Assembly: GCA_903915535.1 (NCBI GenBank)
Contig: CAIWTJ010000003.1
Location: 1-52,100, forward strand
Origin: Enhydrobacter aerosaccus
Lineage (GTDB): Bacteria > Pseudomonadota > Alphaproteobacteria > Reyranellales > Reyranellaceae
DNA: 52,100 nucleotides
Direction of reading: 5' to 3'
Position 1 is the first letter of the stretch; each line of letters opens with the position of its first letter. A model generated the notes under the pieces. That model did no database searches and was not told where the DNA came from. It was given only the letters and a program-made list of their open reading frames with translations. The translations under genes were made by a program, and so were the position numbers. Positions 30,124 through 35,614 of this stretch are shown one piece after another.

Positions 30124-32805
30124 TCAGCCCTTTAGCCGTTCGAGGGCTGTAGCCAGGCGTGCGCGCGTCTGCTCGGCCTGGGTGCGGCGCTCGCGTTGCT
30201 CCTCGACGACCTCTTCCGGTGCGCGCGAGACGAAATTCGCGTTGCCGAGCTTGGCGTCGATCTTGACGATTTCCTCGCCCAGCTTCTGGATTTCCTTTTC
30301 GAGGCGCGCGATCTCCGCCGCGAGGTCGATTACCTCGCCGACCGGCATCGCGTAGGTGGCTTCCCCCACCACGATCTGCAGCGATGCCTTGGGTGCCGCA
30401 GTCGCCGCGGCATCGATACCTTCGATTCGCGCCAGCCGCTCGATGGCAGCAGAATGCGTGGCGAGGCGCTGCTTCGTCGTCGCATCGCCCCCGATGACCA
30501 GCAACGCGAGCTTGGCGCTGGGCGGCACATTCAGTTCGGCGCGTGCCGAGCGGATGTCGGAGATCAGTTTCACCAGCCAGCCGATCTCGGCGTGCGCCGC
30601 CGCGTCGATTGCCGGCGGTGAGGGCCAGGCCTGGCCGATCAGCGCGCCATGCTCGGCGCGATGTCCGCTCTTGTCCCATATCTCCTCGGTGATGAACGGC
30701 ATGACCGGATGCAGGAGCTTCGCCGTTTCGCGCAGCACGAAGGCCGTGACCGCGCGCGTTTCGTCCTTCTCGGGGCCGTTGGCACCCTGCAGGACCGGCT
30801 TGGAAAGCTCGACGTACCAGTCGCAGACGATCCCCCAGATGAACTCGTAGAGCGCTGTTGCCGCATCGTTAAGGCGGTATTGCGTCAACGCATTGTCGAC
30901 GGCGTCATTGGCGCGTGCCAGTTCGCCCAGCACCCACTTGTTGACCGTGAGGCTGGCGCTCGCCGGATCGAACCCCGTGGGCAGAACCGCGCCATTCATT
31001 TCGGCGAAGCGGGTCGCGTTCCAGAACTTGGTCGCGAAGTTGCGCGATCCCTCGACCCGGGACGCCGCCAGGCGCAGCCGGCCGGCGGAGGACGCCGCCA
31101 TCGATGTCACGGTGAAGCGCAGCGCGTCGGCGCCGTATTTATCGATCAATTCCAGCGGGTCGATGATGTTGCCCTTCGACTTGGACATCTTCTGGCCCTT
31201 CTCGTCCGTCACCAGCCCGTGGAGATAGACCGTGCGGAAGGGCACCTCGGTCATGAAATGCATGCTCATCATCATCATGCGGGCGACCCAGAAGAACAGG
31301 ATGTCCCAGCCGGTGACGAGCGTGTCGGTAGGATAGTATTTCTTGAGCTCCGGGGTCTCCTCGGGCCAGCCGAGGGTCGAGAACGGCCACAAAGCCGAGC
31401 TGAACCAGGTGTCGAGCACGTCGGGGTCGCGCACCAGCTCGACGTCGCTACCGTAGTGCTTGCGCGCTTCCAGCCGTGCTTCGTCTTCCGACAGCGCCAC
31501 GAAGACCTTCTTGTCCGGCCCGTACCAGGCGGGGATCTGATGGCCCCACCACAGCTGGCGCGACACGCACCATGGCTGGATGTTCTCCATCCAGCGGAAG
31601 AACTCGTCCCGCCCGCGCTCCGGCACGAACTTCACCCGGCCATCTCGCGCCGCCGCGATCGGCGCCTCGGCGAGCTTCTTCGCATCGGCATACCACTGCT
31701 CGGTCAGGAACGGCTCGACCGGCACGCCGCCACGATCGCCATAGGGCACGGCGTGGGTATGCGGCTCGATCTTCTCGACGAGGCCCATCTCCTCGAGTTC
31801 GGCCACGATCTTCTTGCGCGCGTCGAAGCGATCGAGGCCGCGATATTTCTCCGGTGCGTTCTCGTTGATCCGGGCGAACTTGTCGAAGATCTGTATCATC
31901 TCGAGCTTGTGCCGGCGACCGACCTCGAAGTCGTTGAAGTCGTGCGCCGGCGTGATCTTCACCGCGCCCGAGCCCTTCTCCGGATCTGAATATTCATCGG
32001 CCACGATCGGGATCTTGCGGCCGACCAGCGGCAGGACCGCATGCTTGCCGATCAGGTGCTTCCACTTGGGGTCGTCCGGGTGCACCGCGATGGCCGTGTC
32101 GCCCAGCATGGTCTCGGGCCGGGTCGTCGCCACGACGATGAACTCATCGGCGCTGCCGTCGATCGGATACTTCAGGTACCAGAGATGCCCCCTCACCTCG
32201 CGCGACTCGACCTCGAGGTCGGAAATCGCAGTCAGCATCTTGGGATCCCAGTTCACAAGACGGTTGTCCTTGTAGATGAGGCCCGCGTTATAGAGCTCGA
32301 CGAAGACCTTGAGGACCGCCTTCGACAGGCCCTCGTCCATGGTAAAGCGCTCGCGGCTCCAGTCGCACGAGGCGCCAAGCCTGCGGAGCTGGCCGGTGAT
32401 CGTGCCGCCCGAGAAGGCCTTCCATTCCCAGACCTTCTCCAGGAACTGCTCGCGGTTCAGGAGCGTGCGATTGCCCTCGACCTTTGCCCCCTCGACGGCA
32501 AGGCCAATGTTCTCCTGTTCGAGATTGCGCACCACGACCATCTGCGTGGCGATGCCCGCATGGTCGGTGCCCGGCTGCCACAGGACGTCGTCGCCCTTCA
32601 TGCGGCGCCAGCGGATCAGCACGTCCTGCAACGTGTTGTCGAGCGCGTGGCCCATGTGCAGGCTGCCCGTCACGTTGGGCGGCGGAATGACAATGCAGTA
32701 CGGCGGCCGCTGCGATTCGGGGTGCGCCTTGAACGCGCCGGAGTTCTCCCATTCCGGATATCGGCGGGCTTCGATCTCTTTCGGATCGTAGGTCTTGTCG
32801 AGCAT
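30124..32805 (-). CDS. valS: Valyl-tRNA synthetase
   Basis: An 893-residue class I aminoacyl-tRNA synthetase that charges tRNA-Val. The HIGH-type motif is HMGH in NVTGSLHMGHALDN near residue 50, and KMSKS occurs in GQKMSKSKGN near residue 537. The inserted editing (CP1) domain lies between, including VATTRPETMLGDTAIAVHPDD. The C-terminal coiled-coil arm (AAEIARLEKEIQKLGEEI onward), typical of ValRS, is present. The start ATG has AGAGGCAAC upstream. A strong terminator ends only about 14 bases before this ATG, so transcription must pass or begin within it. Gene order with popZ, a TolC-type gene and a PCMT-like gene is common in alphaproteobacteria. Confidence 0.97.
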   Translation of the reverse strand: MLDKTYDPKEIEARRYPEWENSGAFKAHPESQRPPYCIVIPPPNVTGSLHMGHALDNTLQDVLIRWRRMKGDDVLWQPGTDHAGIATQMVVVRNLEQENIGLAVEGAKVEGNRTLLNREQFLEKVWEWKAFSGGTITGQLRRLGASCDWSRERFTMDEGLSKAVLKVFVELYNAGLIYKDNRLVNWDPKMLTAISDLEVESREVRGHLWYLKYPIDGSADEFIVVATTRPETMLGDTAIAVHPDDPKWKHLIGKHAVLPLVGRKIPIVADEYSDPEKGSGAVKITPAHDFNDFEVGRRHKLEMIQIFDKFARINENAPEKYRGLDRFDARKKIVAELEEMGLVEKIEPHTHAVPYGDRGGVPVEPFLTEQWYADAKKLAEAPIAAARDGRVKFVPERGRDEFFRWMENIQPWCVSRQLWWGHQIPAWYGPDKKVFVALSEDEARLEARKHYGSDVELVRDPDVLDTWFSSALWPFSTLGWPEETPELKKYYPTDTLVTGWDILFFWVARMMMMSMHFMTEVPFRTVYLHGLVTDEKGQKMSKSKGNIIDPLELIDKYGADALRFTVTSMAASSAGRLRLAASRVEGSRNFATKFWNATRFAEMNGAVLPTGFDPASASLTVNKWVLGELARANDAVDNALTQYRLNDAATALYEFIWGIVCDWYVELSKPVLQGANGPEKDETRAVTAFVLRETAKLLHPVMPFITEEIWDKSGHRAEHGALIGQAWPSPPAIDAAAHAEIGWLVKLISDIRSARAELNVPPSAKLALLVIGGDATTKQRLATHSAAIERLARIEGIDAAATAAPKASLQIVVGEATYAMPVGEVIDLAAEIARLEKEIQKLGEEIVKIDAKLGNANFVSRAPEEVVEEQRERRTQAEQTRARLATALERLKG

Positions 32806-32818
32806 TTGTTGCCTCTAA

Positions 32819-32851
32819 CGAAAAACGCCACGGTTGCGGCACCGTGGCGTT
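32819..32851 (-). terminator. Rho-independent terminator between popZ and valS
   Basis: On the minus strand AACGCCACGG (32851-32842) and CCGTGGCGTT (32833-32824) form a perfect 10-bp stem with an 8-base loop, followed by a T-tract (five T counting the stem end). It starts 22 bases after the popZ stop codon and ends about 14 bases before the valS ATG. Confidence 0.88.
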
Positions 32852-32867
32852 CTATTTGGACGGTGCC
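32838..32867 (-). promoter_or_regulatory. Possible antiterminator pairing (attenuator-like) in the valS leader
   Basis: GGCACCGT (minus strand 32867-32860), beginning six bases after the popZ stop codon, is perfectly complementary to ACGGTGCC (32845-32838). The second segment spans the last four bases of the terminator's 5' arm and half of its loop, so this 8-bp stem and the full terminator exclude each other. This is the layout of a transcription attenuator. It is inferred from base pairing only. Confidence 0.45.
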
Positions 32868-32873
32868 TGGGGG

Positions 32874-33515
32874 TCAGCGGCGGGTCAGCCGCGCGATCTC
32901 GCGTTCAACGAGCTGCTCGACCATCGGCGGCAGGCTGCGGTCGATCCATTCCTTCAACATCGGGCGCAGCATTTCCTTCACCAGGTCCTCGATCGTCTTG
33001 CCGCCATCACCGATGGCCATGGCCGGCATCGCGGTGGGCGCCGCCGCGGCGGGAGTCGCCCTGCGCTCCTCGACCACCTGGTTGAGGCGATCGAAGGCGG
33101 AGGTGGCGGCACCGGCTGCGCTCGACGCGGCGAGCGGCTGGTCGAAGGACGGAGCCGGCGGGGTTGGGCTCGGTGCCGGACGGGGAGAAGGCGCCGTCTC
33201 GAACGGCGGCTGCGGCATCTCGCTTGCGCTCACGGGATCAATCCTCTGCATTGGAATTGGTGTCGGCGCCACGGGCTCCGGCTGAGTCGCAGACAGCGTA
33301 GGCTCCTCGATGAGATCGGTGAGCAGCAGCACATCCTCGCGGCTGCCGTTTCCGGCGGTACGCGGCCCGGCCGAACGCAGATCGATCGGAGCGTTCGCCG
33401 GCTGCACGGGCGGCGGGGCATTTCCGCTCACCTGCGCGCGGGCTTCGTCGTCGGAGATGATCTTACGAATAGACGCCAGGATGTCGTCCATCGACGGGTC
33501 GTTATCGGCACTCAT
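32874..33515 (-). CDS. popZ: Polar organizing protein PopZ (DUF2497)
   Basis: A 213-residue protein with the PopZ layout. A short conserved N-terminal helix (PSMDDILASIRKIISDDEA, about 8-25) recruits client proteins. A long Pro/Ala/Thr-rich disordered linker spans roughly 30-150. The C-terminal helices for self-assembly (IEDLVKEMLRPMLKEWIDRSL, then VEQLVEREIARLTRR) end the protein. PopZ forms a condensate at the cell pole that anchors the chromosome origin region through ParB in Caulobacter and relatives. The start overlaps the TolC-type gene stop (ATGA). The popZ-valS order is typical of alphaproteobacteria and supports the assignment. Confidence 0.92.
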   Translation of the reverse strand: MSADNDPSMDDILASIRKIISDDEARAQVSGNAPPPVQPANAPIDLRSAGPRTAGNGSREDVLLLTDLIEEPTLSATQPEPVAPTPIPMQRIDPVSASEMPQPPFETAPSPRPAPSPTPPAPSFDQPLAASSAAGAATSAFDRLNQVVEERRATPAAAAPTAMPAMAIGDGGKTIEDLVKEMLRPMLKEWIDRSLPPMVEQLVEREIARLTRR

Positions 33516-34909
33516 GGCTTGCTCCCGGAGCTCTCGTTCCAGAGCCCAATCCAGCGAGAACCTACTTCCTTATAGTACTTCTCTTCATCGTAGAATTCGA
33601 CAGGCAATCCGAGGGTCCTCGCGGTCAACCGGCCGATGCCCGCCAGCACCGTATAGAAGGCGACCTGCACGTCATGCCGGGCCACGATCAGGCTGACCTG
33701 CGAATTGAGCAGTTCCTGCTCCGCGTTCAGCACGTCCAGCGTGGTGCGCGAGCCGACCAGCGCTTCCTGGCGCACGCCGTTCAGCGCGACATCGTTGGCT
33801 TTGACCTGCGCGGTGAAAGAGTTCACGCGCGAGCGCGCCGAGTCGAGGTTGCGCCAGCCGCGGATCACGTTCTCCGCCGCCGTGCGCCGCGCGCTGTCGA
33901 GTTCGTTGCGACGCTGACCGACCAATTCCTTGGCCTGGCGGATTTGCGACCACTCGCTGCCGTTCTGATAGATCGGCACGGTTGCCTGCAGGCGCACACC
34001 ATACTGATTGAAGTTGTCGTTTGGTGTCGCGAGCTCGAACTGTTGCTGGATGTGGCCCACGAGGTTGACCTGAGGCAGCAGCACCGACGCCGCGCTGTTC
34101 ACGCCGTACTGCGCCGCCGAAATGCGATACTGTGCGCTGACGGTGAGCGGGCCCCCGTTCATCGCCAGCGACACCGCCTCTTCCTCGCTCGCCGGCAACG
34201 CGCCGAACAGGGGCAGTTCACCCATCTTCCCCGGCCTCTGGCCAACGACATGCACGTAGACTGCCTCGTCGATGCGGATCTGCGCTTCGGCGAGGACGAG
34301 ATCGGCCTTCGACTGCTCGAGACGCGCCTCGGCTTGCGAGACGTCCGTGATCGTGAGCTCGCCCACGCGGAAGCGTTCGCGCGTTGCCTCCAGCTGCTGA
34401 ACGAGCACGCGCACGTTGTTGCGGCGCACGTCGACGATGCCGAGATCCTGCACGAGGTTCGCGTAGGCGGTTACCGCCTGCAGCAGCACAGTCTGCTCGG
34501 TGCTGGCGAGCGACGCACGCTGGGCCTGGATGTTGGCTTGCGCAGCCTTGGTGTCGGCGACGGTCTTGCCGCCACGGAAGATAGGCTGGGTGACCGTCAG
34601 CAGCGTCGTCTTGCCATTCAGGATGTAAAAAGTGTTCGCCCTGCTGACCGGAAATGAGTCGGTCTCGATCTTGTTGAATTCCGCCGACAGCGAGACCTTG
34701 GGGCGCCAATTCGACAGCGCCTGCTGCAAGGTTTCATCGGTCTGGCGCAGCAGCGCGCGACCGGCCAGCAGGTCGGGATTGCTGTTGTAGGTCGAAGCCA
34801 TGGCTTCGACGAGGCTTTGCGACCAGACCGCCGACGATCCGCCCATTGCGACCAGCAGCGCACTCGCCAACGCCGCTCCGGTTTGCCTCAACACGGGCCG
34901 GATACGCAT
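33512..34909 (-). CDS. TolC family outer membrane efflux protein
   Basis: A 465-residue outer-membrane channel protein of the TolC/type I secretion family. A signal peptide covers about residues 1-31 (ALASALLVAMGGSSAVWS). The two repeated long helical hairpins are apparent, for example LRQTDETLQQALSNWRPKVSL, VLVQQLEATRERFRVGELTITDVSQAEARL in the first half, and ALVGSRTTLDVLNAEQELLNSQ in the second. It forms the trimeric exit duct for export pumps; no pump or adaptor gene is adjacent. The place between the PCMT-like gene and popZ is a conserved alphaproteobacterial order, and it overlaps popZ by ATGA. Confidence 0.93.
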   Translation of the reverse strand: MRIRPVLRQTGAALASALLVAMGGSSAVWSQSLVEAMASTYNSNPDLLAGRALLRQTDETLQQALSNWRPKVSLSAEFNKIETDSFPVSRANTFYILNGKTTLLTVTQPIFRGGKTVADTKAAQANIQAQRASLASTEQTVLLQAVTAYANLVQDLGIVDVRRNNVRVLVQQLEATRERFRVGELTITDVSQAEARLEQSKADLVLAEAQIRIDEAVYVHVVGQRPGKMGELPLFGALPASEEEAVSLAMNGGPLTVSAQYRISAAQYGVNSAASVLLPQVNLVGHIQQQFELATPNDNFNQYGVRLQATVPIYQNGSEWSQIRQAKELVGQRRNELDSARRTAAENVIRGWRNLDSARSRVNSFTAQVKANDVALNGVRQEALVGSRTTLDVLNAEQELLNSQVSLIVARHDVQVAFYTVLAGIGRLTARTLGLPVEFYDEEKYYKEVGSRWIGLWNESSGSKP

Positions 34910-34954: not shown

Positions 34955-35614
34955 TCAGAAGGTGAAGCGAGCCGGTGGCGCGAACCCGGGCAATACCGGC
35001 GTGCCTGCATCGAAGAGTGCTCGCCCGGAGGTCACACCGCCCTCTTTCACGACAAGTTGTGCCACACCCATGGCGCCCGGCCCTCCGGCCAGAACGGTGA
35101 CCAACCGGCCACCCTCGGCAAGCTGGTCGAGGATCGCGGGCGGGATCTGCCGCACCGACCCTTCGATCAAGATGACATCGTAGGGGCCGGAAGCCGCCAT
35201 GCCGGCCTCGGCCTGGGCCGTGACCAGGGTGACGTTCCGAAGGCCCAAAGCCTTGATGGTCTGGTCGGCGGAACCAGCCATCCCGGCGTCGCTTTCCACC
35301 GCCACGACCGACTGCACCAGGCTGGCAAGCAAGGCCGCGCCATAGCCCCGTCCGGAGGCCACAACCAACGCCTTGTCCCCGGGGCCCGCCTGCAGGGTCT
35401 GGATCAGACGGGCCAGAACCATGGGTTCCATCAGGAAGCGGCCATTGCCCAGCGGTACATCCTCGTCGGAATAAGCCACCGATTTCAGGCCGTCGGGCAG
35501 GAATAGCTCGCGCGGCAGTTCGCCCACCACGGCCAGAAGCTGGGCGTTGTTGACGCGGTTGGGTCTGAGCTGGCCGACGACCATGTTGCGACGTGCGAGC
35601 GCGAAATCCGTCAT
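34955..35614 (-). CDS. PCMT-like (protein-L-isoaspartate O-methyltransferase family) protein
   Basis: A 219-residue protein of the PCMT fold. The N-terminal part follows the family (LPRELFLPDGLKSVAYSDEDVPLGNG), but the motif usually read as GQTISQP is GRFLMEP at 58-64, lacking the conserved Thr/Ser of the active site. The SAM-binding loop, usually EIGTGSGYQ, is ASGRGYG at 86-92 with the glycines partly kept. It may bind SAM yet be unable to repair isoaspartate. It precedes the TolC-type gene by 45 bases on the same strand, as in many alphaproteobacteria, which hints at an envelope-related rather than repair role. The divergence is seen; the functional consequence is inferred. Confidence 0.85.
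   Translation of the reverse strand: MTDFALARRNMVVGQLRPNRVNNAQLLAVVGELPRELFLPDGLKSVAYSDEDVPLGNGRFLMEPMVLARLIQTLQAGPGDKALVVASGRGYGAALLASLVQSVVAVESDAGMAGSADQTIKALGLRNVTLVTAQAEAGMAASGPYDVILIEGSVRQIPPAILDQLAEGGRLVTVLAGGPGAMGVAQLVVKEGGVTSGRALFDAGTPVLPGFAPPARFTF

Follow-up and report, generated by a model that had tools for sequence, protein, structure and literature searches.

A possible transcription attenuator with an unusually frozen terminator between popZ and valS in an alphaproteobacterial family

Gene Order and Features of the popZ-valS Gap

The stretch of DNA analyzed here (the window) comprises 52,100 nucleotides of contig CAIWTJ010000003.1 from Enhydrobacter aerosaccus, an alphaproteobacterium of the Reyranellaceae. 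On its minus strand, a pcm-like gene, a tolC-like gene, popZ, and valS follow one another in a presumed operon, all four with Pfam support, and 68 nt lie between the popZ stop codon and the valS ATG. The position of valS downstream of popZ is also described for Agrobacterium and Caulobacter in the consulted part of a published account (PMC5686542). The link between valS and polarity to which the initial annotation drew attention is only a consequence of this gene order. The genes and the elements of the gap are as follows:

34955-35614, minus strand: pcm-like gene, first in the presumed operon (Pfam PF01135, E 3.6e-31)
33512-34909, minus strand: tolC-like gene, its 3′ end overlapped by the popZ start (PF02321, E 5.7e-56)
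32877-33515, minus strand: popZ (DUF2497) coding region, stop excluded (PF10691, E 2.9e-22)
32878-32891, minus strand: small hairpin CGGC-TGACCC-GCCG at the popZ end, a possible extra part
32874-32876, minus strand: popZ stop codon TGA, the proposed ribosome position
32860-32867, minus strand: upstream arm A, GGCACCGT, with conserved core GGCACC at 32867-32862
32841-32851, minus strand: 5′ arm of the putative terminator, AACGCCACGGT
32838-32845, minus strand: segment B, ACGGTGCC, complementary to arm A, with conserved core GGTGCC at 32843-32838
32835-32840, minus strand: loop of the putative terminator, GCCGCA
32824-32834, minus strand: 3′ arm of the putative terminator, ACCGTGGCGTT, continuing into TTTTTCGTT
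32817-32825, minus strand: U-tract, TTTTTCGTT
32812-32815, minus strand: valS Shine-Dalgarno sequence, GAGG
30124-32805, minus strand: valS, valyl-tRNA synthetase (PF00133, E 4.6e-140; PF10458, E 1.2e-18)

The popZ frame encodes a full product of 213 amino acids, and its TGA is separated from arm A by the 6 nt CCCCCA. As had been annotated initially, the arm is perfectly complementary to segment B, which consists of the last five bases of the terminator 5′ arm and the first three bases of the loop. The hairpin has an 11-bp stem, spans 32851-32824 on the minus strand, and begins 22 nt downstream of the popZ stop codon. Its end, placed by the annotation about 14 bases before the valS ATG, indeed falls 11-15 nt before it, with the run of five T ending 15 nt and the last TT 11 nt upstream of the ATG. 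All pairs of the 4-bp hairpin CGGC/GCCG at the end of popZ are Watson-Crick in 53 of the family's 57 distinct sequences, and one further sequence has a G-U pair among them. The Arg codon at position -5 of popZ is CGG in 53 of 56 sequences, as against 17% of Arg codons in 67 valS sequences.

Distribution of the Element

Within the window's genus, probably Reyranella, 65 genomes were searched and valS was found in 60, of which 58 carry popZ upstream of valS with the hairpin in the gap; in the two exceptions, G004 and G014, popZ and valS lie apart. The arrangement is also present in genome G094 (L076) of the neighboring genus g28, and no popZ match upstream of valS was found in nine genomes of genera g26, g27, and g29. 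All popZ-valS gaps of the family, 61 in number and 57 of them distinct, contain the hairpin; among the 61, the window appears twice (L001, L003), G036, which is near-identical to it, once (L002), and the contaminated genome G013 twice (L011, L038).

A covariance model of the element was built from 54 of the 57 distinct sequences. In eight same-genus genomes it gave seven strong matches (E below 1e-11), located at popZ-valS or, in G014, behind popZ, and none in G004. The match in G094 has an E of 6.6e-9, and the remaining matches in the 15 genomes searched have E values of at least 8e-4. A search under stricter filters covered 289 genomes of the class and gave 20 that match the model at E ≤ 0.01: three same-genus matches below 1e-11 and 17 others from 1.2e-5 to 0.0075. 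The 17 loci fetched for the weaker matches contain no valS or popZ match, and 16 of these stretches look by eye like ordinary terminators, the other (L245) being shown off-centre. A dispersed repeat or a regulon was set aside, since the strong matches are confined to the family among the genomes searched.

In G014, the element has remained complete behind popZ at the broken junction, down to the Shine-Dalgarno stretch, and valS is located on another contig without the hairpin. The sequence ATAAGGCAGAGA at both ends (L169 / L087) resembles a target-site duplication. In G004, popZ and valS are about 1.95 kb apart, with other DNA in between, and the hairpin is gone. These separations are neither proof nor refutation of regulation. 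A further rearrangement is seen in the gap of L075 (G072), where an insertion of about 126 nt, containing two inverted repeats, separates the popZ stop codon from the arm; the arm-hairpin unit is intact despite this insertion. In L057 (G092), valS clusters with one clade and the leader is like that of another, which suggests an exchange with a break near the popZ-valS junction. L011 has a similar mismatch between valS and leader, but its source genome, G013, is contaminated. Outside the family, an unrelated alphaproteobacterium (L110, WGNI01000016.1) has a strong terminator-like hairpin that ends about 15 nt before the valS ATG and stands, by eye, behind a TATA-like box; this is possibly an independent case.

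A Plausible Terminator with a Frozen Stem

The gap holds what characterizes an intrinsic terminator, namely a stable G+C-rich hairpin followed by a U-tract, and the hairpin is a plausible one. The half-sites GCCACGG (5′ arm) and CCGTGG (3′ arm) are identical in all 57 distinct sequences, and RNAalifold on this set found no terminator-stem pair with changes on both sides. Compensatory changes, which the initial annotation had proposed looking for in both stems, are present in the arm pairing described below, but the terminator stem is frozen. The spacing between the half-sites is 6 nt in 21 sequences, 7 in 5, 8 in 30, and 9 in 1 (n = 57), a variation for which a DNA operator with two half-sites was set aside. 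The U-tract is TTTTTCGTT in 45 of the 57, and four T are invariant throughout. By eye, a second copy of the tail (e.g., GAGGGGGCGTTTTCGTT) follows the terminator in L009, L014, L019, L030, L059, L062, and L072.

The terminator after an hsp20 gene served as a control, with 28 usable hairpins from 30 same-genus genomes at this one locus. The 28 include 13 stem combinations, several of them compensatory, or 12 if one hairpin that is evidently a different one is left out, and their U-tracts are varied. Because the hsp20 control terminators vary and the popZ-valS half-sites never do, the popZ-valS stem appears to be constrained in its very sequence, to the extent that a single control locus can show.

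Complementarity and Covariation of Arm A

The duplexes of each arm with its own segment B have a mean of -12.2 kcal/mol, as compared with -11.45 kcal/mol when partners were permuted among sequences (none of 20,000 permutations as good) and -8.2 ± 0.3 kcal/mol for shuffled arms. For the window's own arm/loop duplex, z is -2.6 against shuffled arms. Complementarity upstream of the hairpin has a z of -1.93 at popZ-valS and of 0.03 at the hsp20 control terminators, with the upstream segment of L075 shortened in this comparison.

A run of at least six arm/B pairs is found in 44 of the 57 sequences, four of which (L023, L038, L053, L060) use a stretch starting at the stop codon itself. The other 13 fall short of it, with only three pairs in L014, L036, and L062. 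The complementarity over eight bases that had been annotated holds in the window and in the near-identical G036, which alone has the exact 8-mer in common with it; in the next relatives, L004 and L052, it is reduced to the 6-bp core GGCACC/GGTGCC. A different 7-bp pairing, CCGCGCC/GGCGCGG, is present in L076 of genus g28. From the popZ stop codon to the start of the arm, the distance is 5-7 nt in 53 of 57 sequences, 17 nt in L014, and 132 nt in L075, the arm positions of L014, L075, and L076 having been set by hand in this count.

The most variable pair is G-C in 25 sequences, G-U in 11, A-U in 5, C-G in 4, U-G in 1, and unpaired in 11 (n = 57). Overall, 89.2% of cells are paired, as against 31-59% when slid. 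The covariation score is 0.201 vs. 0.144 ± 0.014 in shuffles that ignore the relatedness of the sequences, with none of 500 as high. Pairs changed on both sides (2 vs. 2.1; 374/500) and further pair types (8 vs. 7.0; 148/500) do not rise above the shuffles, in an alignment (A1) that misplaces the arm of L055 and L066, lowering the pair counts, and takes L075 from inside its insertion. A test of phylogenetically independent swaps covered 24 pairs, using 60 rows, a shortened upstream segment for L075, and a rapidly built tree that leaves 20 of its 64 inner branches open. Contiguous pairing was better in 9 and worse in 1 (p = 0.02), and the energy version gave 10 better and 4 worse, which is not significant (p = 0.18), all sign counts being rounded means of 300 random pair choices. 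The arm/loop covariation is thus present but moderate, with some tests not significant. The arm and the hairpin envisaged in the initial annotation are conserved together at popZ-valS, and the complementarity of the arm is specific.

Alternative Pairings and the Proposed Attenuation

In folding of the sequences other than L075, the A:B pairing has a mean probability of 0.83 (above 0.5 in 52 of 56) when the 3′ arm is left out, and the terminator has a mean probability of 0.96 (above 0.9 in 52 of 56) when it is included. Exceptions are L014 and L056, with an A:B probability under 0.3 in the fold without the 3′ arm, and L023, with a terminator probability of 0.14 in the full fold. For the window, the 29-nt hairpin core has a folding energy of -19.2 kcal/mol, which none of 200 shuffles matched; the 47-nt piece lacking the 3′ arm adopts the 8-bp arm pairing at -13.5, and here 12 of 200 shuffles did as well. 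The means are -16.0 for the hairpin and -12.5 when the 3′ arm is left out of the folded stretch. Since the hairpin is the stronger, antitermination must be kinetic, and since A:B is favored without the 3′ arm and the terminator with it, the outcome would hang on time and on a free arm.

The competition between the two pairings proposed initially is borne out over the loop and the loop-side stem, where 2-3 bp of the conserved core, or 5 bp of the window's 8-mer, would be contested; strict mutual exclusion is unsupported. With the competition confined to the loop side of the stem, the arm pairing and the lower stem could coexist as a pseudoknot, the last loop of which would often be short. A conserved alternative pairing that would compete with the terminator, the mark of an attenuator, is accordingly present over the loop-side stem only, with exceptions and with measures that are not significant.

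The source of valS mRNA bears on how such an element could act. A crude consensus scan of 31500-33500, in which only 0.2 hits were expected by chance, found no sigma-70-like promoter, and the earlier statement that the hairpin leaves no room for a promoter after it stands. With no such room, valS is probably fed by readthrough, the simplest source of its mRNA, and a fully efficient terminator would then be hard to reconcile with valS being an essential gene.

It is proposed, with slightly less than even confidence, that valS is subject to transcription attenuation of the intercistronic type, exerted in the popZ-valS gap through an unusually frozen terminator. Polymerase arriving from pcm-tolC-popZ would make arm A, then segment B, then the 3′ arm and the U-tract. 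A free arm A would pair with B first and slow hairpin formation, so that transcription would enter valS. If arm A were occupied, for which the likeliest agent is a ribosome that finishes popZ just behind polymerase, or if B were released in time, the frozen hairpin would form and transcription would stop ahead of the valS ribosome-binding site. A lag of translation behind transcription would then raise valS expression, and tight coupling would lower it. The parts and their conservation, the complementarity of the arm with its modest covariation, and the predicted folding order are seen in the sequences; that the hairpin terminates, that the arm antiterminates, that a ribosome serves as sensor, and in which direction control runs are what we infer from them. 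A terminating ribosome at the popZ stop codon would, from its footprint, at least partly cover arm A, and the sensor step fits the spacing of the arm but is weakened by L075, with its arm 132 nt from the stop codon, and L014, at 17 nt, also speaks against it. Against the attenuator count the 13 of 57 sequences lacking the six-pair run, the separations in G014 and G004, and the possible coexistence of the pairings as a pseudoknot. The frozen sequence of the stem is not demanded by the attenuator model.

Alternative Explanations

A plain leaky terminator of pcm-tolC-popZ could set valS at a fixed fraction of popZ, with no regulatory role for arm A. The tail GGCGTTTTTCGTT recurs at other terminator-like hairpins of the genus (e.g., L198, L201), terminator-like hairpins stand between popZ and valS, by eye, in some other alphaproteobacteria (e.g., L049, L091), and the element stayed with popZ in G014, all of which would suit a plain terminator. 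However, at the one hsp20 control locus, 13 stem combinations in 28 stand against a single sequence in 57 at popZ-valS, and upstream complementarity is close to zero. This explanation is considered unlikely.

The frozen hairpin may instead be a site for a trans-acting protein, such as ValRS or a Nus-type factor, that decides termination with the assistance of arm A. The invariance of the half-sites, unlike the hsp20 control, is what such a site would produce, and their spacing of 6-9 nt suits RNA more than a two-site DNA operator. The candidate protein is hypothetical, however, and strong model matches occur only in this family among the genomes searched. The variable loop also argues against an anticodon-like mimic of the kind that E. 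coli thrS reportedly contains. For the rimP-leader, the same argument, from a conserved stem to a trans-acting protein, is printed in the consulted part of its description (PMC2965389). On balance, recognition by a protein is judged distinctly unlikely. Similarly doubtful is a combined, family-specific scheme in which a factor, possibly ValRS, would read the frozen terminator and arm A would sense a ribosome close behind polymerase; if true, arm A and the factor-read terminator would together sense coupling and increase valS whenever translation falls behind.

A promoter of valS itself, with a -10 box TATAAG overlapping the U-tract region, a leaderless or nearly leaderless mRNA, and a hairpin that merely insulates, is very unlikely. 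TATAAGG is common in the genus, and in genus g29 (L077-L080), where valS lacks popZ upstream, TATA-like boxes seen by eye (e.g., TGTGCTATAGGGCC) are perhaps valS's own promoter. However, TTAGAGG stands at this place in the window and TTTAAGG in a large clade; the TATA portion is variable, an AAGG or GAGG is retained 5-7 nt ahead of the valS start codon in 47 of 57 sequences, and the consensus scan found no -35-like site. TATAAG is therefore better read within the Shine-Dalgarno sequence TAAGG, and it was set aside as a -10 box. Equally improbable is a stem-loop with a U/A-rich cleavage site for mRNA processing or for protection of the popZ 3′ end, with valS on the same transcript, since its position between two genes of one presumed operon and the single-stranded U-rich stretch directly after the stem would fit, but the arm/loop complementarity and the terminator-like tail would be left unexplained.

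Significance and Comparison with Known Systems

Control of aminoacyl-tRNA synthetase genes in alphaproteobacteria is little described, and the open-access literature matches listed on valS/popZ and on synthetase attenuation contain no account of the popZ-valS element. With a frozen terminator and a conserved arm placed behind a full-length gene, synthetase supply could be coupled to the state of translation in a compact way. The element is a small, clear test object, and its comparison with the varying hsp20 terminator offers a simple comparative test of regulatory vs. ordinary terminators.

In Firmicutes, the T-box riboswitch controls aminoacyl-tRNA synthetase genes through a terminator. The popZ-valS gap is alike in having a terminator before a synthetase gene and differs in lacking a T-box match: at the Rfam gathering score the window has two tRNAs only, in agreement with the initial expectation that there would be no T-box, and a permissive Rfam scan of 32700-33000 gave four weak matches, none of them a T-box. 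With these two scans, the T-box and other Rfam families were set aside; to our knowledge, alphaproteobacteria are without T-boxes.

Attenuators of the trp and his type have ordered alternative pairings and an arm just after a stop codon. Both traits are shared by popZ-valS, whose upstream frame differs in being a full gene rather than a short leader peptide. No Val-rich leader peptide is found there: within the last 15 codons of popZ, Val predominates at just three positions, -15 (55 of 56), -11 (56 of 56), and -6 (30 of 56).

In Sinorhizobium meliloti, attenuation of DUF1127 genes depends on translation of a uORF, according to the part of the report consulted (PMC12218461). This alphaproteobacterial case is like the popZ-valS model in relying on translation of an upstream frame, and, as far as that part goes, differs in being presumably Rho-dependent and in having a small uORF. 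In the text consulted, the rimP-leader has the motif GGGc...gCCC, is found in many bacteria at rimP-nusA-infB, and mostly shows no evident antiterminator (PMC2965389). It is likewise a short terminator with a highly conserved stem sequence directly before a gene. At popZ-valS, the stem is also frozen but reads GCCACGG...CCGTGGC rather than GGGc...gCCC upstream of rimP, is found in one family, and is accompanied by an arm.

In E. coli rph-pyrE, as in the popZ-valS gap, a terminator lies between two cistrons. A ribosome near the rph-pyrE terminator relieves termination. The popZ-valS gap differs in having an antiterminator-like arm, and a ribosome at the popZ stop codon would favor termination; with 22 nt between this codon and the hairpin, the hairpin would probably lie beyond the reach of a terminating ribosome. 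For rph-pyrE, the consulted part of its description (PMC2784333) links attenuation of the downstream gene to translation of the whole upstream one. A complete upstream cistron and a terminator are likewise present at popZ-valS, where the absence of a promoter is suggested only by the consensus scan and the pattern of conservation. The popZ-valS element thus resembles both rph-pyrE and the rimP-leader, short of established membership in either.
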